From positions 6,918,350 to 6,982,349 of the forward strand of contig OY811972.1 in assembly GCA_963681505.1 (NCBI GenBank): a stretch of DNA of 64,000 nt. The letters are read 5' to 3'. The notes below the pieces were generated by a model that was not told the origin of the DNA, searched no databases, and saw only the letters and a list, made by a program, of their open reading frames with translations. Source of the DNA: Eunapius fragilis (lineage: Eukaryota; Porifera; Demospongiae; Spongillida; Spongillidae). This document shows, piece after piece, positions 3,086-62,130 of this stretch (its first letter is position 1; each line of letters starts with the position of its first letter). Made by a program: the position numbers and the translations under genes.

Positions 3086-3352
3086 GTTTTGCACAGTGCA
3101 CCCAGAAGTCAAAAGGCCTAAGGAAACAATGGTAGTATTGCCTGAACTTTGTTAATTTTTCTGTGTGTATTATACATCGTGTGATTTGATGTCGTCATTG
3201 CTGTTGGATAGTAAGTATAATAATCATTATGAGTATTTTAAAAAATACAAGAACATATGGCAATGTTTAAATTTTTCTTGCTTGCATCCATGTTGGACTT
3301 GTAAGGATTCAGGTGCGGATGGCAGCTATTACCTAGTGTTAATTGGGCTCGT

Positions 3353-3380
3353 TTCCAATCCCTCTATATATTATCTCTGC
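3353..3380. mobile_element. Solitary 28-bp transposon end
   Basis: TTCCAATCCCTCTATATATT followed by ATCTCTGC is identical to the terminal inverted repeats of the element at 29735-31288. The inner side (towards 3330) also shares the word GTTAATT. No partner end was seen to the left, so this is a truncated or solitary end. Confidence 0.55.
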
Positions 3381-5779: not shown

Positions 5780-8700
5780 ATGTCTATTCAGACTACACTT
5801 TTCGGAGGAGTATTGAAAGATGTGCAACACATTTACAAGGTGCCACGAGACGCGTACGAAAAGTTTATTGAGTTGTGGTGGCAACGAGCCAGGCGAGAGA
5901 AACCAGGAGCAAGCAAGAACGAACTTCTCAAGCAAGCACAGGTATGTAGTTTATGGAGGCACAGCTGCTAATATATACTTGTAACCTGTACTATAGGGTA
6001 GGTTAAATGGAAAGCTATGAAGAATTCACCTAAGGATCTTGAAAACTTTTTCACTGAGTGTGAAGAACAAGGTACAGAGAGTGGACAGTATGATGTGGAA
6101 GTACCGGATTATGGGTTTTCCAGAATGGCAACCTCAACAACAGGTGTGCAGTCCTGTTGTATATAGATCTAATTGTAGATAAAGATTTTCTGTTTACATA
6201 CATGTACAGCAGCAACACATGGCCCTCAGTCTTGCTCAACACATGGCCCTTAGTCATGCTCAACACATGACCCTCAGTCCTGCAGAACACATGGCCCTCA
6301 GTCATGCTCAACACATGGCCCTCAATCTTGCTCAACACATGGCCCTCAGTCTTGCTCAACACATGGCCCTCAGTCTTGCACAACACATGGCCCTCAGTCA
6401 TGCTCAACACATGGCCCTCAGTCATGCTCAACACATGGCCCTCAGTCTTGCTCAACACATGGCCCTCAGTCTTGCTCAACACATGGCCCTTAATCATGCT
6501 CAACACATGACCCTCAGTCCTGCACAACACATGGCCCTCAGTCATGCTCAACACATGGCCCTCAATCTTGCTCAACACATGGCCCTCAGTCATGCTCAAC
6601 ACATGGCCCTCAGTCTTGCTCAACACATGGCCCTCAGTCATGCTCAACACATGGCCCTCAGTCATGCTCAACACATGGCCCTCAGTCTTGCTCAACACAT
6701 GGCCCTCAGTCCTGCACAACACATGGCCCTCAGTCTTGCTCAACACATGGCCCTCAGACTTGCTCAACACATGGCCCTCAGTCTTGCTCAACACATGGCC
6801 CTCAGTCTTGCACAACACATGGCCCTCAGTCTTGCTCAACACATGGCCCTCAGTCTTGCTCAACACATGGCCCTCAGTCTTGCTCAACACATGGCCCTCA
6901 GTCTTGCTCAACACATGGCCCTCAGTCTTGCTCAACACATGGCCCTCAGTCTTGCTCAACACATGGCCCTCAGTCTTGCTCAACACATGGCCCTCAGTCA
7001 TGCTCAACACATGGCCCTCAGTCTTGCACAACACATGGCCCTCAGTCTTGCTCAACACATGGCCCTCAGTCTTGCTCAACACATGGCCCTCAGTCTTGCT
7101 CAACACATGGCCCTCAGTCTTGCTCAACACATGGCCCTCAGTCTTGCTCAACACATGGCCCTCAGTCTTGCTCAACACATGGCCCTCAGTCTTGCTCAAC
7201 ACATGGCCCTCAGTCTTGCTCAACACATGGCCCTCAGTCTTGCTCAACACATGGCCCTCAGTCATGCTCAACACATGGCCCTCAGTCTTGCTCAACACAT
7301 GGCCCTCAGTCTTGCTGAACACATGGCCCTCAGTCTTGCTCAACACATGGCCCTCAGTCTTGCACAACACATGGCCCTCAGTCTTGCACAACACATGGCC
7401 CTCAGTCTTGCTCAACACATGGCCCTCAGTCTTGCTCAACACATGGCCCTCAGTCTTGCTCAACACATGGCCCTCAGTCTTGCTCAACACATGGCCCTCA
7501 GTCTTGCTCAACACATGGCCCTCAGTCATGCTCAACACATGGCCCTCAGTCTTGCTCAACACATGGCCCTCAGTCTTGCTGAACACATGGCCCTCAGTCT
7601 TGCTCAACACATGGCCCTCAGTCTTGCTCAACACATGGCCCTCAGTCTTGCTCAACACATGGCCCTCAGTCTTGCACAACACATGGCCCTCAGTCTTGCT
7701 CAACACATGGCCCTCAGTCTTGCTCAACACATGGCCCTCAGTCTTGCTCAACACATGGCCCTCAGTCATGCTCAACACATGGCCCTCAGTCTTGCACAAC
7801 ACATGGCCCTCAGTCTTGCTCAACACATGGCCCTCAGTCTTGCTCAACACATGGCCCTCAGTCTTGCTCAACACATGGCCCTCAGTCTTGCTCAACACAT
7901 GGCCCTCAGTCTTGCTCAACACATGGCCCTCAGTCTTGCACAACACATGGCCCTCAGTCTTGCTCAACACATGGCCCTCAGTCTTGCTCAACACATGGCC
8001 CTCAGTCTTGCTCAACACATGGCCCTCAGTCATGCTCAACACATGGCCCTCAGTCTTGCACAACACATGGCCCTCAGTCTTGCTCAACACATGGCCCTCA
8101 GTCTTGCTCAACACATGGCCCTCAGTCATGCTCAACACATGGCCCTCAGTCTTGCACAACACATGGCCCTCTGTCACCATCATTTCCTGTGATTTCAAGC
8201 ACATTGCAAGCAACTTGATTGCCATCATCATCCACTTCCTCACAGGCAGAATCATCATCAACTCCTTCACACATGCTTTTCAATTTTCTCTGTCCTGTAA
8301 TTGACTTTTTGACTGATGATGTGAGGAATAATAAGGCATTCATGACTTGTGTGAAATCCTCAGAGCAATCATTGCTGTATTTCCTAAACCTCAGGGAGAA
8401 ATATTTGGCAAAACAAATCTGAGACAGGCCAAGCAACCTCAAGAAGTGCCTGGATGAAATCCAGAAAAGTATTGCTGCAATTATTTCCCTCATTGACGAA
8501 GCTTCAAAGTTGAATATCAACCCATCCATTGGGGTTGATAGACTTGCACGAATGTGTGTGCAGAAGCAAGAACTTCTCACTCGAATTGGTCAATCCCTCA
8601 TTGCACTGAAAAACAAAATAACCTCTGGAGATGTACTGAACAACATTCGTCTCAGGGTTCAACAGCAATCAGAGGCACATACAGACGACAGCAATGTGAT

Positions 8701-12864: not shown

Positions 12865-13200
12865 GGGCCACGATATTGGTATGGGAAATATGGCAGCTGC
12901 AACCCACATGTTGACACTGTGCCCAGCTGCTATTCTCTACCATGGTGAATGCTAATTGATAGCCACCTTGCCATACCCATACCAAGAAAGAGGACCACCT
13001 ATTAATGCATATTGAGAGGCATGAGGGGGGCATGAGGGAGGCATGAGAGGGGGGGGGGGGGTCCATGAGGGAGGTATGAGGGGGGGGGGGGGCATGAGGG
13101 AGGCATGAGGGATGCATGAGGGGGGGGGCATGAGGGAGGCATGAGGGAGCATGAGGGAGGCGTGAGAAGGGGGGGGGGGGCATGAGGGAGGCATTACCAG
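12865..13200. repeat. Repeat Y, copy 1, with GGCATGAGGGA minisatellite
   Basis: Conserved lead (GACACTGTGCCCAGCTGC, TTAATGCATATTGAGAGG) then about 15 units of an 11-13 bp repeat, GGCATGAGGGA with G-run variation. The Pro/Ser/His-rich frames opposite it (PPSCLPHA) are by-products. Confidence 0.85.
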
Positions 13201-13596
13201 GGACACGCCCAACTAGGTATGTGGTTAGGCAAAGCAACGTAAGCCTAGGTAGCTGTGGTTGTGTGCTGAGTGCATCTGGGTGCAATGGGGGTACATGTAG
13301 CTGTGGTTGCGCAGTGGCATATCCAGGATTTCAGCGAGGGGCCGGGGGTGCTTCAGGTCAGGCCCGGTGGTACTGTCCGCTTCAGGCCCGATACAAAAAG
13401 TGGGGGGCTGTTTGGCACATAGCAGATACATTATCGTTAATAGTTAACGGTTACAATTTTGGCCGAGGGGGGTCTCAAGCACCCGGAGCACCCTCTCTGG
13501 ATACGCCACTACCTTAGCGTGGTCACGCGCTGAAGTCTACCTACACATCGCACTTGATGCCAAAAGAATAGAACCCTAGATGAAGTTTATGCAACC
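13200..13596. repeat. Repeat X, copy 1, left part
   Basis: Begins ACACGCCCAACTAGGTATGT and includes GTGCATCTGGGTGCAATGGG, the unoccupied form of the site used by the transposon at 25829-32730. A sub-element with ends CAGTGGCATATCCAGG and CTGGATACGCCACTA lies at 13315-13510. X resumes at 14335 after a hAT insertion. Confidence 0.8.
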
Positions 13597-18463: not shown

Positions 18464-21400
18464 CAGCAGGGATGACTCTAAACCCAGACAAATGCAGGTT
18501 TTTCTAGAAGAAAGTACTCTATCTGGGACACATAGTGTCAGAGCAAGTAGTGACTCCGGATCCGGAGAAATCAAAAGTGGTTACTGAATGGCCCACACCC
18601 ACTTGCCTGGTAGAGTTGCAAGGATTCCTGGGTCTGGCAAACTACTACAGACACGTCATCCATGGATATGCGGAAGTTGCCAAACCCTTGCACGAATTAT
18701 CCAGAAAAGGAAGCGACTTCAAGTGGACGAGTGATTGCATGAGTGCTTTCAGTACTCTAAAGACAAAACTCACTTCATCTTCTATTCTAGCATACCCCGA
18801 CAGCTCCAAACCCTTCATCTTAGATACAGATGCAAGCAAACACAGCCTGGGAGCAGTTCTATCCCAGATTCAGGATGGTAAAGAAAGGGTTGTCTGTTAT
18901 GACAGTAGGCTGCTCAGTAAGGAGGAGCGATACTACTGTGTAACTAGGAGAGAGTTATTAGCAGTTGTGGTCTTTACCAATAAATTTCATCACTACTTGT
19001 TGGGAAGACCTTTTCGCCTCAGAACAGATCATGGCTCACTTCTGTGGTTACATAATTTCAAAGAGCCAGAAGGCCAACTCGCGAAGTGGATTGAGAAGTT
19101 ACAAGAGTTCACCTATGAGATTGTACACCGAGAGGGTCGCAGTCATAATAATGCAGATGCTATGTCCCGTATTTCTTGTAACAACCGCAAGTGCCCAGTA
19201 CATGATGGTACAGCGCACACCTCAGGTGAGAGTGCAGTGGTGCCTATTATATTACCGGAGGCAGTGTCAGATATGGATGTCTCCAGCTTGCAGTTACAAG
19301 ACAAGGATATTGGACCAGTTTTAAAGCGACACAAGGAGGGGGCCAAGCAGCCAGAAGTTGGCCAGACAAAAGGGTTTAGTTCTGCTGTTTCAACAATGGA
19401 TGCAACTACTGCTTGAGGAAGGGGTCCTGTATCGGCAGTTCGAATATCAAGATGGAACTTCTGACAGATTGCAACTCATCGTTCCAAAAAGCCTCAGAGA
19501 GGAAGTGTTAAGGCATTTGCATGAAGGCCCATGTGGTGGGCACTTTGGGGAGGATAAGACATTGCATAGGTTACGAGAAAGATTCTACTGGCCTGGTCAT
19601 CAGAAAGATGTAATCAATTGGTGTCGCACATGCAAGGATTGTGCAGCTAGAAAAGGTCCAGCACCCAAGAGGAGAGCCCCATTGACCTTTATTAAGGTCG
19701 GATCCCCGCTACAGATTGTGGCAATGGATTTTCTTGGCCACTTGTGGAGTCCGAAGATGGCAACCGGTACATCCTGGTGGTTGGAGATCACTTCACGAAG
19801 TATATGTCAGCCTATGCTGTTCCGAATCAGAAAGCTAAAACAGTACGACAATTCTTGTAGAAGAATACTTCTGCCAAAATGGATTCCCGGAACAACTTCA
19901 TTCAGAGCAGGGACCACAGTTTGAGTACGATGTAATTGCAGAGTTGTGCAAAAACCATGCATGAGTATTCAGAAAACTAGAACTACACCATATCATCCTT
20001 CTTGCAACGGAGAGATAGAGAGGTTTAATAAGACACTGTGTGACATCCTGGCTACTGCATTGGAAGGCTGCCACTTCACCTGGGATAGGCATGTCAAGAT
20101 GGCCTGTTTTGCGTACAACACAAGTGTGCATGCTTCAACGGGTTATACGCCGTTTTACCTGATGCACGGTTACGAGGCCCGACTTCCAGTGGATCTCTTG
20201 TGTAGAACACCACAGCAGGAAAATGTGTCACACAGTGAATATGTCGCCAAAGTACAGAAGAGAATGGGTCAAACGTTTGACAAAGTTCGGGAAAAGACAG
20301 GACAAAGTCAGTTAAGGCAGAAAGCATTCTATGATAGAAAGATTCACGGGGAAAGGTTCAACACAGGTGATTTAGGGTGGCTGTGGAACCCTGCTGTTCC
20401 AAGAAAGAAAGGATTCAACTGTAAAAAGTTGCACAGATCTTGGCAAGGACCTTTTGAGCTCGAGGTTATTAAGCAACTTTCAGATGTTACATACAGGATC
20501 CAGCACACAGCAAAGAGAAGGCAACGTCAAGTTGTGCACTTTGACCGCCTCAAACCTTGTAACCCAGATGTCCGCCTTCACAAGGTTAGTCAACCAGCTA
20601 GGACACCACAGGAGTTACGTGTCAGTGTACAAATTCCAAATACAAACCCTGCTAATCCTGACGCAGAGGAAGATACGGATGATGAGGTGCCGCTCCCACA
20701 TGTCAGAGAGAGTGAAGAAAAATCAGAGGGGGGAGATGTGGAGATGGAAAATGCGGGTCAGTTGCCAGGCCAAGTTGAGGAGACTGAGAACATTCAAGAA
20801 GTTCTAGAGAATGGTGGTTCTCCTGCACCAGATGATCTGGAAGAAGATGCAGCTTCCCCTCTAGAACAGAGACGGTATCCAGTTAGAGAGCGAAAAGAAC
20901 CAGACTGGTTTGGGAATTTCGTTACTAAGTCGATACGAGGACGTATCTTTCATGAGGGAGGGCTATGTAATAGGCTGAGCAAATAATAATGATGTAATGT
21001 ATTGCGCGCATGCGTGTTGGGTGGGTGTCCCTTTCTGTCTGTGAGATATTTTGGAGACTCATGTGTCGTCAACGGTTGTAGTTCGGGGTTTACAACTGTA
21101 TAGAGAAACTTCATTCGTCACTGCAGCTCTAAAAAGCAAGCAAATCATAAGATGTTCAGGCAATGGCTGGATAAGTACTTTCAGTCCATTTCTGAGGATG
21201 AATGGGTTGGGATTGAAGAAGATGATGATGCATTTGACTATGCTCATTGTGGTCCAGGTATATCAGTTGACACCATGGAGGGCTTAGAGGAGGCACGTGC
21301 ACTATAGTGACGCCATGCATGCGCATGTTCACTTCCTATTGATTGTACCCATTTATACTCTGTCAGATCAACCTTCATCTGAGTTATATATTATTCCATA

Positions 21401-25099: not shown

Positions 25100-25700
25100 C
25101 CACTTCCATGGGCAACGGTATTGGTATGGGAAATATGTCCACATGTGGACACTGTGCCCAGCTGCTATTCTCTACCACAGTGAATGCTAATTGACAACCA
25201 CCTAGCCACACCCACACCATGAGATAGTACCACCCATTAATGCATATTGAGAGGCATGAGGGAGGCATGAGGGGGGGCATGAAGGAGGCATGAGGGATGC
25301 ATGAGGGGGGGCATGAGGGAGGCATGAGGGAGGCATGAGGGGGCATGAGGGAGACGTGATGGGGCATGAGGGAGGCATGATGGGGGCATGAGGGAGGCAT
25401 TGGGGGGGGCATGAGGGAGGCATGAGGGGGGGCAAGAGGGAGGCATGAGGGATGCATGAGGGGGGCATGAGGGAGGCATGAGGGAGGCATGAGAGGGCAT
25501 GAGGGAGACGTGATGGGGCATGAGGGAGGCATGATGGGGGCATGAGGGAGGCATGAGAGGGCATGAGGGAGACGTGATGGGGCATGAGGGAGGCATGAGG
25601 GGGCATGAGGGAGGCATGAGGGGGCATGAGGGAGGCATGTGGGGGGGCATGATGGAGGCATGAGGGGGCAGGGGGGGCATGAGGGAGGCATTACCATGGA
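25100..25700. repeat. Repeat Y, copy 2, with GGCATGAGGGA minisatellite
   Basis: Same lead as copy 1, then some 40 units of GGCATGAGGGA/GGGG at 25255-25690, with higher-order blocks including GAGACGTGATGGGGCATGAG. Confidence 0.85.
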
Positions 25701-25864
25701 CACATCCAACTAGGTATGTGGTTAGGCAAAGCAACGTAAGCCTAGGTAGCTTTGGTTGTGTGCTGAGTGCATTGCCGTGATGTAGGTAGCTGTGGTTGTA
25801 CGCATGTGTGTGCTGAGTGCATCTGGGTCAAGGGGTCCGCCACCACTGAAATGTCGTACACTCT

Positions 25865-26030
25865 GGTGAGAAATCAAATAGAAATCTTGAAATCAATAGA
25901 AATCAGGGAGAAATCACGAAATCCTAGAAATCCGTCAAAAATCACGAAATCACTTGAAATGCGGTAGAAATCACATTGAAATCTTGAAATCACCATATAT
26001 TTACAAATCACAGCCGTAAATTTAGAAATC
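25865..26030. repeat. Subterminal AGAAATC repeats, left end
   Basis: About fifteen copies of GAAATC at 7-15 bp spacing, all in the same strand orientation. Likely binding sites for the element's own protein (inference from other transposons). Confidence 0.8.
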
Positions 26031-26152
26031 ACATCCGTATTTGCTTTAATAACTAATGCTACGTTTGCAATAATTATTAATGTTTTTATACATATGCCAA
26101 TTATACAAAAATTATGCAATAATTATACTTATACTCGTACGAAATAATCTGT

Positions 26153-29100
26153 ATGGAGCTCGGAGCTTGCGATTCAGTATCAGAAGAATCAAAAGTTCAG
26201 TGTGTTGAGCGCCTGTTGAGGTCAAAGCTGCCAGGCTACATAGTCAGTTGCATGTTGGCTGCTGGATTCGACACACTCGACACTTTGGCATTGGAAACCA
26301 ACCGGGCAATTCCATCCAGATCATTGAAGAATACATCTCTTCCAACTTTCCAGGCGATGCCAGGTACATGCATGCTCCATTACTTGGATCAACTTGCAAA
26401 TTTCCCCCTAGACACCGTATTAGAATCAAGCAATTTGTGCAAGAACTGCGCTCAAGCCACGTATGTCATGACCTCCTCAATGATGCTGTTCAGCCTGCTA
26501 CGAAGAAAAAGAAAAAAAACTGTGAACCAGAAGCAGCAGCTGCACAAGCTCCAGCTGGAGAAATTTCTGCTTTAACGGAAAGCTGCACTATCTCGACGAT
26601 TATTCCGAGACTTTGTCAGCAGATTAATGCGTGGCAAAAAAAGTTTATCTGATGAAAGGCTGCGAAGTTTGCAAGAAAATGTACACTATGAGTTGACTAT
26701 GAAAGAAGAACAAGCTGTGGTGAGTTGCAGGTTGTATTCTAGAAATTTCATTCTTAGTTCTAAACACAACAAGCTAATCTTGTCCAATTGGACATGTCAC
26801 GTTAGGACATGTTTCAAGGCTCCCAAAGAGCATAATCACATCGAAAAATACTTCTTGAACCTACCATCACAAGCTGATAAGCCTTGCACATCTAAATCAG
26901 CTAATCTACCATCCAATTCTTCTTCAGCATTGCTTTCATCATCATCTCCAACTGTCACCCAACTCAGCAACTTACTTGCATGTAGATCCTCCACCACCAT
27001 CACCATCACCACCACCATCATCATCATCATCATCTACTACTACTTCATCATCATCTAATTCCAGTTAATCATCACCTCCAGCTGTCGCTATGTCAGCAAT
27101 TTGTATGTCAAAGCCAAAAAAGCACCAAGTTCAGGCAGATAAATATCACATACATCCAATTGATAAATTTAGTACACCTATAGCTGACTTTGAACCTCCA
27201 TAACCATTCATATCTCCATCAATGTCGTCTCAAATCGTATAATCAGAATCACCATCTTCATCAGCAGCTGCGCCATCACTATTACTGACATCATCATCAA
27301 GCTGCTCTTAAAGGAATATTCACACCACTTTTTCAAAAGCTTGTGGATAATGCTCAGTAAAATATACACAAATTACCAAAAGAAAGTCGTCATGATCACA
27401 TCATGAAAAAAGTTTCAACATCATTGTTCATTTATGCAGGGCTCCTTGCATATTCATTTGTTCATCAGAACATGCCTCAAGCTCTGCCATCACTTCGGAC
27501 TGTCCAACGAATTGTCCACCATGAGTATGAGGTTATGAATGAAGGGGAATTTAGATTTGACCAATTAGCTAATCATATTAACAGCTATAAATGCGCAAGA
27601 GTAAGAGTCATCGGTGAAGATGCAACTCGTTTAGTTGCAAGAGTTGATTACGATCCAAAAACAAATAGACTAGTGGGGTTTGTGCTGCCTGAAGGTGAGG
27701 ATAGCATACCATCTATTGATGCTCATGTAGCTATTTCTTTTCAATCTATTGAAGATTCTTTCAAAAGTTCCAAGATATCAAAATATGCTTTAGTCTACAT
27801 AGCCCAGCCTCTTTCACCAGTAGTTCTTGCCTTTCCTTTAGCTTGTATCGGTACTGATTATAAGTTCACTGCAGTTGTTCTTTTAAAGCGATGGTCGCAT
27901 ATTTCAAGTGAGTGTCAAAAAAGAGGAATCTCTGTGCTAAGCTATGGCTCAGATGGCGACTCGAGAGAACTAAAAAACATGCAGTATTGTACTGCATTAT
28001 TTGCTATGCATGCTTCAAAAGATGTGAAATCTTGCATTCCATCGCATTGGAAGTCATGGTTTTTTCTTAAAAAACCAACACACGTAGCATATGTCCAAGA
28101 TACAGTATATGTGGGGACAAAACTGCGCTAGACTCCTAACTCTATCCATCATTTTTGCGTTAGGAAAGTATGTTGCTGGTGCCCATCATTTGCAGTTGGT
28201 GTAGACTGCAGAGACAAGCAAAACTTTGATTCGGTGCTGCGCATTACAAGTAGAAGTGCGATGGCACAAATTTCTCAGATCCTTGATGCTAAGAGTACTC
28301 ATGTGTATTTTAAAGCTTTGAAAGCTGTTTTAGATAGTTATACTTAAATAAAGAGCTTAGTCCACTTGATAGAGTATCCAAATTTGGTATGCTGTGTTCT
28401 TTTTTCGATATTGGGGCCAATGGCTTTTGTCTGTTCCAAGCTACTCCTTGGGCAACAACTTCATAACGCGGAATGCTTATTTGTGTATAGAGCTAAATGC
28501 ACATGTTCTAATCATTTTCATGAGAACATTGCGGGATCATTATTCGGACGGTGCTGCCCTATTCAGTCCTTTGAAGCTTGGGTCACAGTCATGTGAAAAA
28601 ACCTTTAGGGCTGTTCGCAGCATGACCACTACTTTCTCCACTGTTATAAATGTGGGAATGCTTGGGTTAATAAGAAGGCTACACCGACTTCAGATTCAGA
28701 TTAGACTTGAGGCTGAATCAGCACAGAATGGCATTAGGTATCCACACTGTGAAAAGCATAACAACAAAGATGGATCTAATACATGAGTTACATTTTCCCT
28801 TCAGGGTGTAACTGATGCTAACATTGAAGATGCTGTCGAATGCGGAAGGAAATTAGCGATGAAAGATATCAAAATGCTTGGGATGGAGTTATCTTTGGAA
28901 AGGAACATGGATGTTGAAAATGAATCGGCAGGCAGTATAATTCCTGAAGTAGAAGAAGATGATGAAGAACTTGATGATGAAGAGCCACCAAGAAGTGATG
29001 TGAATGAAGCTGAGTTGCTGAAAGAAGCATGCTGTGCTGTTGATGAAGAGGAAGTGTCAAGTCTTGATGATTTAAAAAGTGCTAAACTAGTCAAGGGGGA

Positions 29101-29751
29101 ATCTTCTAAAGCAGTTGGTACAAATGCAGGAAGCTGTCTCCTACGAGAAGGTGCAGTCAGGTACATCTCTACCAATCTATACCAAAAATCTTGTGCAAAG
29201 CTCTAAGGCATCAAAGAAGTGTTCCCAATTTGTTGAAGTAAGCCACGTTGGCCGCACAATTTACATCCACAAAACAACTGCTGTGTGGCTATTTCAAGAA
29301 GGAGAAAGGGTTTCATCAGATCGCCTTTTTAGAGTTAGAGAAAAGCAACCTTATTCAAGTGTTACTACTAACGAAATCAAGGTCTGTGACTCCAATGCCA
29401 CTGTTCCGACTATGTGTGATGTGATTTCAATAGGTGACATGTGCGTTTAAGTTTCCGGAACCTTGTAAATGGAAGCTTGGCAAAGTTTTGCAATTTTGCT
29501 ACACATGTGAAAAAACAAAAATGAAACGGCAGTATAAAAAAACTAGTTACAACAAAAATTCTGAAGCAAAACAGACGGGAGTCATGTATTCTTGGTTTAA
29601 TTCATCTGATTCGAAAATGTATGAGTTGAATTTAGATAGAAATACCATAGAAAATAATTCCTTTTTGTCTACAAAGTCATACTTATGCACACTAGCTGTC
29701 ACGAGGCTGTTTTGCATCTTTGGATTGCCCAGAAGCAGAGATAATATATAG
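26153..29751 (+). pseudogene. Transposase-like gene block of the 6.9-kb element
   Basis: Coding pieces in several frames: 26153-26300 (LLRSKLPGYIVSCMLAAGFD), 26290-26650, 26627-26830, 27403-28345, 28394-28786, 28801-29210 and 29115-29751. The core has RVIGEDATRLVARVDYD and KTNRLVGFVLP, then SYGSDGDSREL, YVQDTVYVGTKL, and near the end SCEKTFRAVRSMTTTFST. The order (first acidic strand with YD..T..LVGFV, then SDG, then a D-x-x-x-x-x-T-K-L segment, then an E-x-x-F-x-x-x-R helix) recalls the RNase-H-fold transposases of P elements and THAP9. That comparison is inference. An acidic region (EEDDEELDDEEPP) follows. Stops and frame changes make it inactive as it stands, though some breaks may be unrecognised introns. 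Confidence 0.55.
26925..27055. repeat. CAT/CATCAC simple repeat
   Basis: Runs of TCATCATCATC and ACCATCACC within the transposase-like block. Confidence 0.8.
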
Positions 29752-31288
29752 AGGGATTGGAAGCTGGATAATTAAAACCTAATTAACACGGGCAATGCTG
29801 GCTAGGGTATAGAATCCATGCAAGTGTACATAAGAACACAACACAAATCTAAGTATTGAGGTTTTTTCTTAGTGCCTTGGCCTTCTGCAAGTTCTTCTTC
29901 TGGGCTTCTATGTATCTTTCGATCCATGCAGTGGCTTGTGAAAACCCTCGAATACAACCCACATGTCGACAACCATGCCCAAGAGGTGAGTGCTGTACTC
30001 TTCTTCCCAGCCTGCACTAATCATTGACTATAAGAAGAGAACATCTTTGCTCTGCTTCAAGTTCATTTTAATCTCACTGCCAGTAAACTCAGTCTCAGGA
30101 TTACTGCTTAGATGACAACGAAGTTCTCTCTCCATGGTAAGAAAGAGCTCAAATGTCATGCTATTGACACATAAGAGTCCTCCACGGTTGATAGCTCGCA
30201 GCCAGTCAGTCGATTCATTTTGTTCTTCCCTTCCATCATCCAGTAGGTAAGGACTGAATTTTTTCTTCAAGATGGTTGCAAACCAGTCGCACTGAATGTT
30301 GACATTCAAGGTCAAGGTCACTACTACACATAGCCATCCTGAATCATCATGTAGCACAACGTAAGTGGGTTGATGGAAGCTATAACCCATGGTGAAGGGA
30401 GAGTTATCTTCAACAGACGAGCACCAAGATGCTGAGAAGTTAACAACGTGCTACATGTGAAAGCAGAAAGGGGATAGGAAACTATTGCATTCAACAATCC
30501 TGAAGAGTTGCAATCAGTAGTCATGGAAGTGCTGGGACAGGCGGTCGGGGACACCACTGAAAGTCCTGAAGACGCATGAATCACCACCTGCCCTTGCCGC
30601 GGAAGAGACATCACAATACTAACAGCACCACCCTTGCTGCATTCTGCGGCGTATTTATGATGGAGACCAAGGCGAAATTTTCTTCCCATAGCGCAACTTT
30701 GGAAGAGCATGCAAAGCGCAAATACGACGATTTAGTAGTAAAAATACGCCTAAGCAATACAATCCCCTTCGCCCTTTCGTATCCCCTACATTTTAAGTGC
30801 TTGATATCTCCACAACTCCCGCAAAAGGTACAGCCAAAGAGGAACCTCAAAATGCTATTACTGTTCTTCCGCTCAAGCGGTGACGCTCAAACTATCACTA
30901 AGCAACATAGAATAGAGTATGTAATGTACTAACAGAACAATGAAATACATAGGTAGTGGCGGAAAGCTAAAAAAGGTACAGGGAAAAATTTTGTAGCTAA
31001 AATGCCATTACAAATGCAGAATGCGAAGCAAATTAGATAGGACAATCGCTCAAAATGTTTTATCCAACTAGTACAAGTGTCAAGCAATACAGAAAAGGTA
31101 TAAAACGTGGAGGAAGTATATACCTACTATGGAAAAGAAACGCTTCTTTCTGCCTTGGTCGACTCAAACCGCCCCTTTTGACAAGTTCGGAGGTGTGATT
31201 CGCACTAGTACGCATAGTCCGCAGGCATTACTATAGCATTGAATGGCGCACGTGATGAGTTTCCAATCCCTCTATATATTATCTCTGC
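29735..31288 (-). mobile_element. Nested DNA transposon with 28-bp TIRs
   Basis: Perfect 28-bp inverted repeats at 29735-29762 and 31261-31288, starting GCAGAGATAATATATAGAGG. A 5-bp duplication CAGAA lies outside each end (29730-29734 and 31289-31293; one extra matching base is possible). It sits between the transposase-like and Ulp1 blocks of the larger element. Another copy of the end occurs alone at 3353. It holds minus-strand coding remnants (29850-30710). Confidence 0.8.
29850..30710 (-). pseudogene. Transposon ORF remnant in the nested element
   Basis: The minus strand has an open stretch 30390-30028 with DWLRAINRGGLLCVNSMTF and ELFLTMERELRCHL, followed in another frame by WVVFEGFHKPLHGSKDT and PRRRTCRRPRH. 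The RGGL segment followed by an aromatic helix resembles the C-terminal part of transposase ORFs that I recall from sponge and cnidarian elements. It is decayed. The rest (30711-31260) shows no convincing coding. Confidence 0.45.
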
Positions 31289-31489
31289 CAGAAGCAAGTA
31301 GTAGTAAGTTCTTTACCTTTAATGAAGGTAAAATCGCTTTAATGACAGCTCACACAGTAACCCTTACCACCGCTGCTATTGATCACATCACCACCTTATG
31401 TGTCTGTGCCGATGATCAACAATCTACAAAGGCATCATAGACATATCTACAGACCTAAAAAAAAAGTGCAGGAAGTAGGTGAACACATT

Positions 31490-32140
31490 TGGGTCAAACA
31501 TGGAATTGTAACCCTGACGAAACAAGATAAGGTTGATTGGAGGACATGAGCTATCAGATGCTCACATCAACTTTGCTCAGTTTCTACTGAATCATCAGTT
31601 CTCTAGTATAGATGGTATCCGAAATACGCTTGAGCAAAACAAATCTTATGTCAGAAGATTTCCGGAGTCCTCTGCAAAATTAATGCAGGTCATATTTATC
31701 AGAGAATGACACTGGGCGTGTGTTCTTATACATGAAAACCAGGTGTGTATGTATGACAGTGCATACACATCTGTATCTGCTGATACCTTTCAAGTTGTAG
31801 CAAGGCTAGTACAATGCGTAGAACCATCATTCCAGATACAAGTTATGAATATATCTAAGCAGAGAGGTGCAGTAGATTGTGGTTTGTATGCCATTACTGT
31901 GCTAACAAGTTTAGCATTTGATCAAGATCGCACTACATTAGTTTATGATCAACAAGCCATGCGCCCCCACATTAAGTTGAAGAATGTATTCTGCATTGTT
32001 ATTGTAGGATGCCTGATGATGGGTACGAAATGGTCTGCTGTGATCTTTGTGATGCTTGGCATCACAAAGCTTGTGTCAGTGATTCGTATTGCAAGGATAG
32101 TTCCTGGTTATGCACACATTGTAGCAAAAATGAACTTGTT
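31490..32140 (+). pseudogene. Ulp1/SENP-like cysteine protease with PHD finger
   Basis: Pieces: 31540-31680 (LSDAHINFAQFLLNHQFSSI, SYVRRFPESSAKLMQ), then HWACVLIHENQVCMYDSAY near 31710-31760, then VMNISKQRGAVDCGLYAI near 31850. The His of HWACV, the Asp of YDSAY and the Cys of DCGLY with the preceding Gln are the C48 (Ulp1/SENP) catalytic set. About 60 bp further, in another frame, CYCRMPDDGYEMVCCDLCDA, WHHKACV and WLCTHC form a PHD finger. In the family as I recall it the two domains are linked by a few dozen residues; here that link is shortened and at least two breaks are present. Deubiquitinase/deSUMOylase-like genes are known cargo in eukaryotic DNA transposons. Confidence 0.7.
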
Positions 32141-32544
32141 CAATAATTATTGTTGTATCAGTTGTATTAAAATAATGTTGTGATGCATTGATTAATCGAT
32201 TGCGTAAATATTAAATTTAATAACCATGACTATAACATTATTATTACGTGGGCGTCATTTATCAAAAGAGCTATTTTAAATCAGAATGTCAATAATGACC
32301 GTTCTAATTACGTAAACAAAAATAGAATAGTCTTTGGGCATCGAAATTATGTCGGTTGGCACAAACAAGCACTATTCGGTTACAATAGAATGGCACGCTT
32401 TAAAATCATGCCATTGTTGAATTGGTTGCCGCATGCAGCCGCGCTGTGACCCGTCACCTCACTCGCCTCCCTCAGACCTCGCCTCAGATCGCCCGAGACT
32501 GACCAGCTACGTCACGAATGTATTTTTACGTCAAAAGAAATGTT

Positions 32545-32700
32545 GAAATCCAAGTCATATTACGGTAGAAATCAGGAAATAATATATAAATCACGGAAAT
32601 CACCTCGAAATCTAGAAATCATTTCAAAATCTAGAAATCACCGGAAATCAAACAGAAATCTGAAATTGATTTCGAAATCACCGTGATTTCGAAATCTCGT
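32545..32700. repeat. Subterminal AGAAATC repeats, right end
   Basis: A dozen or more GAAATC words, mostly in the same strand orientation as at the left end rather than inverted. Confidence 0.8.
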
Positions 32701-32730
32701 AGGGCTTTTAGGGTAATAGCGGACCCCTCG

Positions 32731-32934
32731 GGGTGCAATGGGGGTACATGTAGTTGTGGTTGCGCAGTGCCGTATCCAGGATTTCAGCGAGGACATAGGC
32801 GGCGCTGACGCTACGGCAAGTACGGCGAACGCCGTAGCACTTTTTATGAACAGTGCGCGCCGCCGTACCACTTTTTCTAAACTGTAGTGGGTGTGTAAGA
32901 CAGCCCCGGATCCAGCATAGGCTTGGGGGGGGGC

Positions 32935-39316: not shown

Positions 39317-42087
39317 TGCGACGAATGTCATCACCAAGAATGTCAATTTAATTTGTTTACGCATGCACTGTTTGAGGTATTAATTGTGTGTAATACTTCA
39401 GATTAGTCAGTTAGATCTGAGTATTGACATTATATGCGTGCATTCCATCACATATGGTGGCAGCTGTGCCGGTAATTTTAATGCCAGGAAGTCTAGCTCA
39501 AGTACCCTGGCCTAGCCATGTTTTCATGTCAAAAACGCACTCAGGTCTTTGCTATAAGGAGGACAACACAAAGGAGAAAATGAAGATGCAGTAGTTAATG
39601 CAAATGCTGGTAGAGGACCGGGAAGTGGAAATAGCAGAAGAGAGATAACGTTGCGAAAAAGAGTTTGATGCAGAGAGGTGAAGAAGAGACGAAGAAAAAG
39701 AAGCGAGGGAATGAGAAATCCAGAAGAGACTGGATCAGATGCAGGCTTACATGGACAACCTTGTGAAACTGGTGGGGGGAACGGCAGTACAACACAGTTG
39801 AGGTGCTGAGATTACTATGAAGCTAGTTCCGTTGAACGAAAGGATGAAGTAGAGGCATACTTAGTCACGTTCGAAAGGATAATGGCAGCCCACAACATTT
39901 CATAGGACAGGTGGCCGTACTATTTGACTTCCCAGTTAATTGCTCTTCGCTGCTGTTTCTCCTTCAGATAGTGGAAATTAAAGCGGCAATTCTCATCTGG
40001 TATGGGATTAACGGGGAAGAATACAGGAGACGATTTCGATTGGCAAGGCGAAATGATGGGGAAACGAACAGAGCGCTAGTCGTGAGGCTGATGGAGTGGC
40101 AAGCCAAATGGTTGAAAGAATGTCACACTGTTGAGGATGTCATGAACGCTGTGGGTAAAGAGCAGTTCCTCAACACACTGCCAACAGTTAAGAAGTGGTG
40201 GGTACTCGATCGAAAGCCAGAAACTTGTGTGCAGGCAGGCGAGTTGGCGGACGAGTACGAGAAGGCAAGGCGGCCTGAAACGGAGATATTGGCTAGCTAT
40301 ACGCCTAAGCCAAACCTAGTAGGTTCCTGTGAATGTCAGTACTGTGGAAAGTCGGGTCATGCCGAGGACGACTGCTATAAGAGGAAAAGAGAAGAAAGTC
40401 AACGAAGCAGAAGTACTCAGTGTTACCACTGCAAAAAGCAAGGACACATGTCGTGGGAAAGCCCAAGAAAAAGTATGGTGTGCAAGGAACGGATGAACAG
40501 GAGACGTGCAGGTGGCAGACCAATGTACAAGACGGGCAAGGTGGAGGTCACCGATATTATGGTATCCTGACCACTGTGTTCATGTGGTTGTCATGCATAA
40601 TTAAGGTGTCAAATACTGGTGCAAGAATGCAAGCACAGGCAAGCACATGCAAGCTTAGCTTTGATGGACCAATGGGATTTGTCTGACAGGAGTCGTGGAC
40701 AAATCCCATTGGTGGACTTTTCAGTTGTTATGTATTTATACCCTTGCACAGTGTATTGATTCGGTTGGTCTGTACTATTATTATAGATTGTGTAGCGTCC
40801 AAAGAGATTGCGAGTTCCCAATTATCCTTCGGGATTGCGAGGCATTGGGTTGTTAGGTTACTACAGATATTCATCTTGACACGGGATGTTCAAGAATACA
40901 ATGGTTCGTCGTAATTTGGTTGCCATGGAGAAGGTCATTGTTGGGAAGGTCGTGACAATCACCTGGGCATCTGGAGACACCAAACTTCATCCCCTTGCTT
41001 TAGTGGAGGTAGAACTGGATGGAGCGCATATTCCGGTGGAAGTGGCTTTATCAGAGGAACTACCTGTGACTGTTTTGTTGGGAACAGGTGTTCCCGAGTT
41101 AACGCATTTGATAAGTGGAAAAGGATCAAGCACCAACTTAGTCAGTCAAGAGCAAGTGATGGTGGTGATGACAAGAGCCAAAGCCAAGCAGCAGCTGGAG
41201 AAAAAGCTGATTAGAAAGAGCTTTTGTTTGGTGCACAACCTAATACACTTGTTCGTGTATATGAATCTACTGCATGTGATAATGTTGTTCTACGAACTCT
41301 AGGTCAGAGAGTGAAGCTGATCAAGCGGAACGACAGCCTCCTATGAAGAATTCAAAGCTGACTAAGGATCAAAGACGAGAGATCAGGAAGAAGGCTCAGG
41401 AGACTAAAAAGTCACGGGAGGGAGGCAGTTCTGAGTATCCAGACATTACGATCGAGGACTTGAAGGAACTGCAAGCTGAAGACCCAACCCTAGCGGAAGT
41501 AATAAGGGCAGCTGATTGGTCAGTGAATGACAGAAAGGAAACGGTATTAGCGGTAGTAGAATACTTTAGGAGGGAGGGGCTCATGTACCGAAGGTGGACA
41601 TCAAGGGGGCGGAGATCAACATTTCAAGTGGAACAGTTGGTGTTACCGAAGCGCTGTCGAGGTACAGTACTGAAACTTGCACAAGAAATTCCCTTAGGTG
41701 GTCATTTGGGGAGGAAGAAGACAGGTCATCGTTTATTGAGACGATTGTATTGGCTGACGTTATTTCAGGACGTGGCAGAGTTTTGCCGAGTGTGCCCAAC
41801 ATGCCAGAGATCGGCACAAGGGACGATCAAACCTGCTCCATTAGTGCCGTTACCAACAATACAAGGTTGTTTACAGAGCTGGGGATCACAGCAAGAATGC
41901 AGATGCATTGTAAGATAGTTTGCTGCAACAGGAGGATGATACATGTATGTGACGAATGTCATTACCAAAAACAATTTAATTTGTACATGCACACGCATGC
42001 ACAGTTTGAGGTATAAATTGTGTGTAATACTTCAAAATTAGTCAGTTAGATCTGATTACTGACATTATATATGTGCATTCCGTCACA
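39317..42087 (+). mobile_element. Ty3/gypsy fossil with both LTRs
   Basis: Short LTRs at 39317-39452 and 41948-42087 (136 and 140 bp), clearly alike but visibly diverged, with GATAT duplicated outside (39312-39316 and 42088-42092). Parts: gag with coiled coil and two CCHC knuckles (about 39590-40560), a protease-region remnant (about 40890-41300) and an integrase zinc-binding region (about 41345-41900). Reverse transcriptase and most of integrase are missing. It is broken, with several breaks. LTR divergence suggests an old insertion. A solo-LTR-like element is nested at 40558-40865. Confidence 0.85.
40558..40865 (-). mobile_element. Solo-LTR-like element, copy 1 (nested)
   Basis: 308 bp, read on minus as TGTAGTAACC to GGATACCATA, flanked by GATAT on both sides (40553-40557 and 40866-40870). 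It matches 51654-51968 in the opposite orientation and lies inside the Ty3/gypsy fossil. Confidence 0.8.
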
Positions 42088-46314: not shown

Positions 46315-48453
46315 ATGTCGCGGGCGAGGGCAGCTGCAGTGCTGACACTCCTGGCTCTAGGTAAAAGGGTTCAGGGGTGTATATCAGCTAATGACCCTGT
46401 ATAACTTTGGTTTGTTTATAGCCATTGCCTCAAGGGGCACTTTAATTTGCAAATGTGCCAGAAGCTATGTATCCGTGGTAGCCCTGGCAAAATGCGATGA
46501 GACGACCAGCACTTGCGAGGGAGCCGACGCGTGTGGCCTCTCCGCTACAAAGCTTCCCAACGACATCGTCCAGATGTCTTGGTTCTGCCTTTATTTTAAT
46601 GACCCCATCGATTGGTTCAGCGACCAGAGTTTTTGCCGCGGTGTCGGGTCGAGCGCGCGGAGGTTGCAGCTGTGTTGCTCAAACTACAGCATGTGCAACG
46701 AAGACCTCAACGCAACGTTTCCCACGCCCCTCTCCCCAACGACGATCGTCCAAAGTACGTGCGAGTGATATCATAGAATGATACGGGTGGTTTTTTATTT
46801 GTTCGTTTTTTATAATTTTAATACACTGTTGCTTCTCACACCCTGCCCACAGCACTACGTCCAAGTCCCACCCCAAGCTCCACCCACACCCCGCTCGCGT
46901 TCCCCGCTGTACCAATGCACTACCTGGTGACTCTAGTGCTCACTCCTGTGCTGATCTTTTCCATCTCCCTCATCGTGGCTGTGCTCATATGGCTGAAGAG
47001 GAAGCACCGTCACACCAGCACCATCCCAGACAATGCCAGCTCTGGCAGTGGATCGGGGAAACCCTACTTGGTCGCCCGCACCGTCTCCAGGGCGATAAAC
47101 CTCCGGGACATCGTCCTGGGTCACGGCCGGTTCGGCCTGGTGCACCTCGGCTACTACCTCAGGGAACCGGTCGCTGTGAAGAGGTTCCGCAGCAGCAATG
47201 AGAGGTCGTGGAGGTGTGAGATGCTCGCCTTCGACCACTGCATGCACCACGACGCCATTGTAGGCTTTGTGGCCAGCGACATGTTCAGCCTGGACGGGTG
47301 CACCGAGTACTGGCTGGTCACCCGCTACCACCCCTACGGCTCCTTACACAGCTATATGAGGAGGAGGGAGGGGACGGAGGGGGGAGGAGTGGGAGGGGGA
47401 GGAGTGGGAGGGGGAGGAGGGGATGCTACCTGCACTCTCTCCAAGGCCGATCTCCTGAGGATGGCATCATCGGCTTGCTCTGGTCTCGTCCACCTCCACA
47501 CCCCCATCGTTGGGGTCAGGTCAAAGCCCATCATGGCACACAGGGACTTGAAGAGCTCCAACATACTGGTGAAGTCCGACCTCACATGTTGCATCGCCGA
47601 CATGGGTCTTGCCGTCTTTGATGGGTGCAGTCTGGAGGAGGAGGAGCTACAGGGCCCCAACTCTCGGGGGACCAGGAGGTACATGTCCCCAGAGATCCTC
47701 ACGGCTGGATCCTTCCCCCAAAAGATGAGTGTGGACAGTCTGGTCAGGTTCTATGTGCACGCTGATGTCTACGCGATGGCCCTGGTCATTTGGGAGATGT
47801 GCAGAAGGACGGTGACTGATACTGGTAATTGGGAGTTATGCATACGAGTGTCATCTGTATGCAACCAAAAGGGCGTTCATTAACCCAGTTCGATCATCTG
47901 TCACATTCATCATGCTCCTTAACACATATACCCCTCCCCCTGCTGGTCTCTGTCCCTATAAACTATCCTTACTGCTTTCCGTTCCCTACCTTCCCCACCC
48001 TCCCCCTATGCACAGGGGAGTGTGACTCATGTGCTGTTCCATATGAGGACATGGTGCCCCCAGACCCATCACTGGAGGACATGAGGAGGGTGGTGTGTGT
48101 ACAAGGCATGCAACAGCGCCCACCTATCTCTGAGCACTGGAGCAAGGACAAGGTAAGGGAGAATAATGTGTGATCAGAACCACACATAGTCTCACACCTC
48201 ATCTCCCCCTCCCTCGCTTCATTCACCTCCCCCTCATCCCTCACTCCCTCACCCATCCCCCTCACCCATCCCCCCCCCCACCTTACCCCACCTTCCCTCA
48301 CCCACACCATTACTTTCCCCGTCTCTTCAGGTTCTGTCTGAAGTGGTGGAGCTGATGAAGGAATGCTGGAGGGACTGTCCCCATGCCAGGCCATCATCCG
48401 TTTACCTCAAATACACACTGTCAGCACTCTCCTCCAGTAGCCTTCCCTTGTAA
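46315..48453 (+). CDS. TGF-beta receptor type I (ALK-like serine/threonine kinase)
   Basis: Exons 46315-46360, 46422-46754, 46853-47824, 48016-48152 and 48331-48453 give 536 residues in perfect phase, the usual size for the family. Signal peptide about 1-20 (AAAVLTLLAL). The ectodomain has exactly ten cysteines, including the CC box and CN (CCSNYSMCN, 100-108). Membrane span about 150-173. GS box SSGSGSGKP (189-197) followed by LVARTVSRAI marks type I and is the site type II receptors phosphorylate. Kinase: GHGRFG (216-221), VAVK lysine 236, helix-C Glu 249, HRDLKSSN (356-363), DMG 376-378, SPE in place of APE, and C-terminal DLVP-like DMVPPDPSLEDMRRVVC. Substrates would be SMADs. Odd: a glycine-rich insert at about 299-317 between lobes, and DMG where DLG or DFG is usual. 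Confidence 0.95.
47382..47432 (+). repeat. GGGAGGA repeat coding the Gly insert
   Basis: GGAGGAGTGGGAGGG units encode GGGVGGGGVGGGGG inside the kinase. Length could vary by slippage. Confidence 0.85.
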
Positions 48454-59784: not shown

Positions 59785-61690
59785 CATGTATACTCTGTTC
59801 GGGTATCCCCAATTTCGATCTCTTCATCACTGCAAACCACTTTGAGGACCTTCTTTACATGTTCTACATCCCTTCTACCCCTCCTTGGTTGCTTGCTACT
59901 GTTACAAACTCGGCCAATGTGACCTGTTTTTCCACATTGATTACACTCAGGTAACACTTATGCTGCTGCACATATTACGATCATCAACTACATCAAATAT
60001 GCATCTTATGCTGCACAGAAAAATGGTGAAAGTCAGCTGCTGTAAATATTCTGTGCTCTGATAATTGCATTGAATGACTCACACCTTCAACATACAAGAT
60101 TGTATAAACACATTACAGTGCCCGCTCCATTATACGGAATAGTATCAACTCAATTTAGGCATATTCATAGAAGTGCACAGGACAATAAACGGTTTGATCA
60201 GATTTTACCTCATCATTTTAAGCGTACTTGTATCAACACATTTGTAAAATCATGCACACAAATTTACACACACGCAAATTCGTGGCTCCCCCTCCCCACT
60301 CTTGGATACAGCAGGGGCCCCCAATGCTGTGTACGTTCCTACACGAATACACACACATACACAAAAATAATCAGCAGCGTGTGCAGCTTCTCTAATCGCT
60401 TGTACATGCAGCGAACGTTCTCAGCTTCCACAAAAGTGTTTTTCTTATAGATCATCAGTACTTCTAGCACGTATCACTTCTATTGCATAACAATGCTACG
60501 ATATGACCCAGAAACGTAGAGGAGCATATAAGCTTGCCCTAATTCGTACCAACCAGCATATTATATTTGCCCTGTTACATGTATGTACACACCTAGTACC
60601 TAACCATGTGCATTATTTAGACAATTAGAACATTCCCAAATTCTTACCATTGACATCTTAAATTTCACGGCAAATGTGATCACGGAAAGTGAGTCAAGCG
60701 TGCGGAGGCCGAGATGATACCTTAAGGCACTACAATACCACATAGCTCTATTAGAGTGATTCGTCCGCATCGACAACAAGTACAATTCGCCCATTATTAA
60801 TATTATTCGAATATACTTTTTTTATAACGACAAATATCCGGATACGCATTTACAAGAAATACAACATAACGTCCACTGCTTATACGATTAATCAATACAT
60901 GGGAACGAGAACAGATGCTCAATTAACCGATTGGAGCAGTTAATCTCGAATCACGACTCATTACGAAGGACAGCTCCTGCTACAAATCAAAGTTAGTTCG
61001 ATTAGCTGATTTCGAACGAGCGGGTTTCCTGCATCAATATCTCTGAGCTGATATTGCTGTGATCGCACTACATAGTTACTAACTCGCTATGATGAAAATA
61101 GGTTGCGTAAACTTCATCTGTGGTTCTATTCTTTTGGCATTAAGTGCGATGTGTAGGTAGACCTCAGCGCGTGACCACTCTAAGGTAGTGGCGTATTCAG
61201 AGAAGGTGCTCCGGGTGCTTGAGCACCCCCCTCTGCCAAAATTGTTACCTATTATTAACGATAATGTTCACAGGGAAAAAAATCGTATTCCGGACCTTGG
61301 GTTTATCCTATCGACCTTGGGAACTGTTCCATCAAATGTATTTACTGTTGTCTTGGGCACTTTGAATACGTTTGATGGAACAGATCCCAAGGTCAATAGG
61401 TGTAAAACCCATGGTCCGGAACTCCCTGTGGTATTTGCTTTGTGCCTCACAAAGGGAGCGGCCCCCACTTTTTGTATCGGGCCTGAAGCGGACAGCATCA
61501 CTGAGCTTGACGTGAAGCACCCCTGGCCCCTCGCTGAAATCGTGGATACGCCATTGCGCAACCACAACTACGTGTACCCCCATTGCACCCAGATGCACTC
61601 AGCACACAACCACAACTATAGCTACCTACATCACAGCAATGCCCTCAGCATACAACCAAAGCTACCTAGGCTTACGTTGGGCGTGTCCCT
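59785..61690 (-). repeat. Repeat X, copy 3 (inverted)
   Basis: Inverted match to 33210-35745. It includes a CCHC gag remnant (59800-59957, CNQCGKTGHIGRVC) at its left end, a hairpin MITE at 61269-61430 and an uninterrupted transposon target site near 61585. The gag remnant is a broken LTR-element fossil. Confidence 0.85.
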
Positions 61691-62130
61691 GGTAATGCCT
61701 CCCTCATGCCCCCCCCCCCCCCCCCCCCGTGCCCCCTCACACCTCCCTCATGTCCCCTCATGCCTCCCTCATGCCCCCCCCCCTCATGCCTCCCTCATGC
61801 CCCCCCTCATGCCTCCCTCATGCCCCCCCCCCCCCCTCGAGCCTCCCTCATGCCCCCCCCCCCTCATGCCTCCCTCATGCCCCCATGCCTCCCTCATGCC
61901 TCCCTCATGCCCCCCCCTCATGCCTCTCCTCATGCCTCCCTCATGCCCCCTCATGCCCCCCTCATGCCTCCCTCATGCCCCCCTCATGCCTCCCTCACGC
62001 CTCCCTCATTCCCCCCTCATGCCTTCCTATATGCATTAATGGGTGGTACTGTCTCATGGCGTGGGTGTGGCTAGGTGGTTGTCAATTAGCATTCACTGTG
62101 GTAGAGAATAGCAGCTGGGCACAGCTGCCA
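61690..62130 (-). repeat. Repeat Y, copy 3 (inverted)
   Basis: CCTCATGCC minisatellite at 61693-62030, then the Y lead (ATTAATGGGTGGTACTGTCT, GAATAGCAGCTGGGCACAGC). Long Pro/Ser/His frames across it are by-products. Confidence 0.85.

Follow-up and report, generated by a model that had tools for sequence, protein, structure and literature searches.

A 6,902-bp insertion at positions 25829-32730 of a 64,000-nucleotide stretch of the genome of the demosponge Eunapius fragilis (contig OY811972.1 of assembly GCA_963681505.1, positions 6,918,350 to 6,982,349 of the forward strand; this whole stretch is hereafter called the window, and all coordinates refer to it) has terminal inverted repeats, a target-site duplication and empty target sites, the features by which a DNA transposon is recognised. 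The copy is dead, its coding sequence being scattered over shifting frames and interrupted by stops. We consider it likely that it descends from a once autonomous cut-and-paste element with a DDE transposase, most likely of the group with the C/DxxH motif common to hAT, P, MuDR, Kolobok and Dada (PMC10045372, PMC9587614). The element, which carries a Ulp1-PHD module, probably represents a novel lineage within a kind of transposon already known, and it may belong with Kolobok-like, Academ or MuDR elements.

The insertion sits inside a dispersed repeat, which it splits into CATCTGGGT, running up to 25828, and GGGTGCAATGGGG, from 32731 on. Both boundaries were reproduced to the base, together with the GGGT duplication that borders them (25825-25828 on the left, 32731-32734 on the right), as a first-pass annotation of the window had claimed. 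That annotation had also reported the uninterrupted target in two places, the positions of which could be refined: two related copies of the repeat carry exact CATCTGGGTGCAATGGGG, with a single GGGT and with homology of both flanks, at 13273-13290 on the plus strand (given earlier as 13270) and at 61578-61595 on the minus strand (given as about 61585). These are the two exact occurrences of CATCTGGGTGCAATGGGG in the window; allowing up to three mismatches adds a single match, at 32726 in the right flank of the element itself, and the mean number of matches expected by chance was 0.09 (100 shuffles). Over the first 69 bases after the insertion, the right flank is identical to each of the two empty sites at 61 positions, and alignment of 60 bases of the left flank gave identity in 46 of 71 columns for one site and 52 of 64 for the other. 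The duplication cannot exceed 4 bp, since the bases adjoining it to the left and right do not agree with the empty sites. The left flank also has longer matches to the empty-site copies, largely through a minisatellite. This minisatellite, made up by eye of GGGAGGCATGA-like units, adjoins the insertion site in all three repeat copies (25251-25691, 13016-13194 and 61695-62047).

The element begins with CAAGGGGTCCGC (25829-25840, plus strand) and ends with CGAGGGGTCCGC as read on the minus strand (32719-32730), and these terminal inverted repeats are complementary at 11 of 12 positions (binomial P 2.7e-6), equally good pairs arising once in 20,000 at random. The single mismatch is such as CpG decay would give. 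A chance origin of the boundaries is rejected. The termini thus paired are of the form CA..CG (CAAGG/CGAGG), the 12-bp end has no second copy elsewhere within the window, and a within-window comparison gave no long match between the element's two ends.

Inside each terminus we found an array of the pentamer AAATC, both on the plus strand: the left one (25871-26030) holds 14 AAATC and no GATTT, the right one (32546-32696) 12 AAATC and two GATTT, so that 26 of the 28 motifs point in one direction. In 500 dinucleotide shuffles the same counts averaged 2.1 on the left (over 25829-26040) and 2.6 on the right (over 32530-32700), with a maximum of 6 at either end. Neighbouring AAATC copies are spaced 8-11 bp apart in 10 of the 13 left gaps and 7 of the 11 right ones, about one helical turn. 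Nowhere else in the window, scanned in 10-base steps with the stretches starting around the two ends set aside, do 200 bases contain at least six AAATC or GATTT. Because the arrays run in the same direction and the termini are inverted, the arrays face opposite ways relative to the termini. We infer that they may be transposase binding sites. The P element is described as having ends that are also unlike, in that its binding sites are spaced differently (PMC7776569), and same-direction arrays at both termini are a different arrangement from that one.

The first-pass annotation had treated the 6.9 kb as a single transposon, and this holds for the length of the insertion and not for its unity. 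A second DNA transposon of 1,552 bp is nested at 29736-31287, with perfect 27-bp inverted ends (CAGAGATAATATATAGAGGGATTGGAA) and a 7-bp duplication, CCAGAAG; the inverted pair 29735-29765 / 31258-31288 marks its limits. An isolated end of its family recurs at 3351-3380. The two minus-strand open reading frames (ORFs) that entered our protein scan, of 140 and 135 amino acids, both lie within the nested transposon and gave no significant Pfam family. Once the nested transposon and one copy of its duplication are subtracted (6902-1552-7), the outer element's own length is 5,343 bp. The nested transposon, the AAATC arrays and the broken coding frames all go beyond what the first-pass annotation had seen.

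The transposase-like coding region is on the plus strand. Its best-preserved part is an ORF of 256 amino acids at 27361-28131, which ends in TAG and in which a P-element-like helix-turn-helix (HTH) segment appears to be followed by the first half of an RNase H-like domain. Residues 4-49 match the Tnp_P_element HTH model (PF12017, E 0.055) and residues 82-205 the TNP-like_RNaseH_N model (PF21787, E 0.038), both below the Pfam threshold. Over other cuts of the ORF, PF21787 was recovered at E 0.017-0.082, and PF12017 at E 0.14 in one cut, being missing from the 242-amino-acid and read-through cuts. By eye, candidate catalytic codons can be placed at 27619 (D), 27952 (D), 28099 (the D of DTVY, standing for DxxH) and 28595 (E, within QSCEKTFRAVRS), to be compared with the landmarks D230, D303, D339 and E531 of P transposase, among which D230, D303 and E531 are reported as catalytic (PMC7776569). 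Successive landmarks lie 111, 49 and about 165 codons apart in the element, the third distance spanning frame changes, as against 73, 36 and 192 in P. Upstream, N-terminal coding remnants (26153-27058) occupy two alternating frames and include, by eye, a degraded C..HxxxxC stretch that may once have been a zinc finger; Pfam gave no transposase family there. Downstream, the putative continuation (28132-28786), which holds the candidate catalytic glutamate, is broken by stops and frame changes, and its ORFs matched no Pfam transposase family; it is followed by an acidic region with C-terminal coding remnants (28787-29450), whose ORFs matched no Pfam family.

Several results weigh against a P-type transposase or against the C/DxxH assignment as a whole. 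All matches to transposase models stay below the Pfam cut-off, and for PF21787 no individual stretch came under E 1, in the 256-amino-acid ORF or in 27403-28128. Chance matches reach similar E-values on other pieces, such as AflR (E 0.012 on 26576-27055). The histidine position of DxxH is a tyrosine in the present copy. Local alignment of the main ORF with the P transposase of PDB entry 6p5a was no better than with shuffles (z 0.2-0.7), for in four scoring schemes the observed score was reached by 145, 168, 194 and 118 of 500 shuffles; phmmer run without filters matched a different and wrong region (domain E 0.43 against one target). AlphaFold models built without an alignment had predicted local distance difference test (pLDDT) values of 34.0 and 38.6. 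A scan of the three whole plus-strand frames recovered the PHD finger alone and missed even Ulp1. Finally, one copy of the element was examined, which makes its duplication length a single observation. Set against this, the two P models, neither of which would carry weight by itself, are of the same type and fall on adjacent segments in the correct order from HTH to RNase H, and together they count for more than a lone chance match. The P/THAP9-like catalytic block of the first-pass annotation is weakly supported and unproven: the two model matches and the D-D-DxxH-E series read by eye suggest it, and no THAP domain was matched in the scanned ORFs or in the three whole plus-strand frames, which are degraded.

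A few other matches were set aside as chance: the NCBIfam matches on 29091-29447 (E 0.065 and 0.092), and the best of six PDB matches of 28373-28783, with a fimbrial fusion (E 0.0021), which is built from three repeated sub-matches, each failing by itself. The main ORF had no match among PDB sequences up to E 10, and NCBIfam gave nothing meaningful.

Beyond the nested transposon, on the strand of the transposase-like ORF and inside the same element ends, lie the remnants of the Ulp1-PHD block that the first-pass annotation had named. Its PHD finger (31997-32143) is secure, with a match to PF00628 (E 1.1e-5) whose 25.8 bits exceed the family cut-off of 24 and with PHD chains in PDB matched at a best E of 4e-7. 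The Ulp1 half is marginal: a putative C48 cysteine protease remnant at 31518-32012, in another frame than the PHD finger and with one in-frame TGA, matched PF02902 at E 0.0038 as it stands and at E 0.001 with the TGA read through, neither match reaching the family cut-off; the read-through version scored 19.4 bits, just short of the required 20.7. The residues kept by eye, a histidine (31710, in HW), an aspartate (YDS, from 31752) and the glutamine and cysteine of SKQRGAVDCG (from 31854), are consistent with such a protease, which is supported and yet unproven; against PDB, the read-through piece gave nothing better than E 1 and no protease. Ulp1 is carried by several unrelated transposons, among them Ginger1, MuDR and some Cryptons (PMC2836005, PMC3212892), and the authors describing Ginger suggest that it takes part in repair, either while transposition proceeds or afterwards (PMC2836005).

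Much of the placement turns on the duplication. hAT duplications are 8 bp long, and hAT is rejected on the 4 bp found here. The canonical P element is excluded likewise, since P and zebrafish Pdre2 are reported to make 8-bp duplications, P transposase moreover having a THAP domain (PMC7776569, PMC10983969). The first-pass annotation had argued that the duplication does not suit the families expected from the catalytic block, and that the group may be undescribed. The duplication does not suffice by itself for a new group, because solo terminal repeats of KolobokP are described with 3-4 or 4-5 bp duplications and no strong target preference (PMC9587614), and IS256/MuDR elements with duplications of 4-10 bp (PMC10045372), ranges in which a 4-bp non-TTAA duplication falls. 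A divergent P-superfamily element making 4-bp instead of 8-bp duplications, which would be a narrower form of the C/DxxH reading, seems rather unlikely: the sole transposase models matching the core are P-type, in the order seen in Drosophila P and zebrafish Pdre2/THAP9, and a D-D-DxxH-E series can be read by eye, whereas the duplication, the Ulp1-PHD block, the missing THAP match and the non-significant alignment to P transposase all set the element apart. We give a better, if still less than even, chance to an explanation standing within or beside the C/DxxH reading: that the element belongs, in degraded form, to one of the superfamilies known for 3-5 bp duplications, for instance Academ or Kolobok broadly taken, and carries Ulp1-PHD as an accessory gene. 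Academ duplications are 3-4 bp long, which agrees with the element. Its own length of 5.34 kb is also near the mean of 5,565 bp given for curated bivalve Academ elements (PMC10294476), and Kolobok belongs to the C/DxxH group and has 4-bp or, in KolobokP, 3-5 bp duplications (PMC9587614). However, the element has GGGT and not TTAA, and CA..CG and not the RR..YY termini described for Kolobok, two differences that exclude Kolobok in the strict sense; KolobokP for its part is described with long terminal direct repeats (PMC9587614), which the element does not have. Neither a His-Me finger nuclease of the KolobokP type (ORFs and degraded plus-strand frames) nor a helicase or XPG nuclease (plus-strand frames, at low sensitivity) was matched, and a zinc finger between DxxH and E was not evident by eye. 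Such whole-frame negatives, that for integrase included, are weak because the scan missed even Ulp1.

The accessory block invites further comparisons. Animal Mutator elements are reported to carry Ulp1, and Ulp1 and PHD sequences of Ginger1 and Mutator have been aligned (PMC2836005), so that a Mutator-like (MuDR) element that also carries Ulp1-PHD, again a narrower form of the C/DxxH reading, would account for the protease, for the motif group and for a duplication at the lower limit of the 4-10 bp range; this we hold to be very improbable, as no Mutator-type Pfam model matched any of the pieces scanned, whose frames are degraded. Ginger1 resembles the element in its 4-bp GC-rich duplication and, in one listed member, Ginger1-9_HM, in the pairing of Ulp1 with PHD (PMC2836005). 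Its TGTNR ends, inverted repeats of 40-270 bp, duplications of CCGG (75%) or CCGT/ACGG (24%) and Gypsy-type integrase (PMC2836005) differ in four features from the CAAGG/CGAGG ends, 12-bp repeats, GGGT and the result of no integrase match in ORFs or plus-strand frames, and a Ginger1-type element, hardly credible on these counts, is rejected. It is also quite improbable that the element is a composite in which the Ulp1-PHD gene arrived separately, by insertion or capture, in a transposon with ends of its own: the block does lie beyond the nested transposon and in other frames, but the inverted pairs listed (25 of 53) included none recognised as ends of the block by itself, it shares the strand of the transposase, and both domains are known as accessories of transposons (PMC2836005). 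As for novelty at the highest rank, an undescribed superfamily-level animal lineage, which would combine a P/Kolobok-like transposase and a Ulp1-PHD gene with 12-bp CRAGGGGTCCGC termini, 4-bp duplications other than TTAA, and AAATC binding arrays running in one direction at both ends and making these functionally unlike, appears decidedly unlikely.

Searches for relatives by protein pattern returned 1, 4 and 1 stretches for three queries in viral contigs and 66 and 14 stretches for two queries in genome contigs, none of which was confirmed as a relative; one protein query had no match in phages. Degenerate motifs and exact DNA each had 0 matches in viral contigs. As the collections searched are viral and prokaryotic, these negative results tell little as regards animals. 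Among the literature matches listed, judged on titles and the starts of abstracts in a scope that leaves many journals and Repbase Reports outside, none described a P-like transposon with Ulp1-PHD and a 4-bp duplication. Similar proteins are presumably common, and unnamed, in sponge and cnidarian genomes.

Elsewhere the window holds remnants of a Gypsy-type retrotransposon (18508-20986; RNase H E 2.3e-33, integrase zinc-binding domain E 1.1e-23) and retroelement-like ORFs at 39848-41918 (SCAN domain E 8e-14, integrase zinc-binding domain E 2.6e-14, with CCHC knuckles by eye). A long tandem repeat at 6051-8304, coding for 8 residues per unit (TEGHVLSK), is open on both strands, over 742 amino acids on the minus and 669 on the plus strand, and an ORF for a receptor kinase lies at 46822-47883, whose GS motif of TGF-beta type I (E 2.3e-7) agrees with an animal as host.

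If the element was indeed a cut-and-paste transposon with a C/DxxH transposase, an RNase H-fold DDE enzyme would have bound both ends, cleaved the DNA at their 12-bp inverted repeats and inserted the element at target breaks staggered by 4 bp, and gap repair would then have left GGGT twice. The AAATC arrays may have been bound by the transposase, and, as they run in the same direction between inverted termini, the two ends would have been unlike for the binding protein. The Ulp1 part could have removed SUMO either from the transposase itself or from factors with which the host silences and repairs its DNA, and the PHD part could have read histone tails. Afterwards the second transposon would have inserted and the coding frames decayed. 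Should intact relatives confirm this picture, they would add a C/DxxH lineage with an altered duplication length, which bears on how active-site spacing relates to stagger. The same-direction subterminal arrays raise the testable question of how unlike ends are paired, and the Ulp1-PHD block adds to the puzzle of SUMO-type proteases in unrelated transposons.

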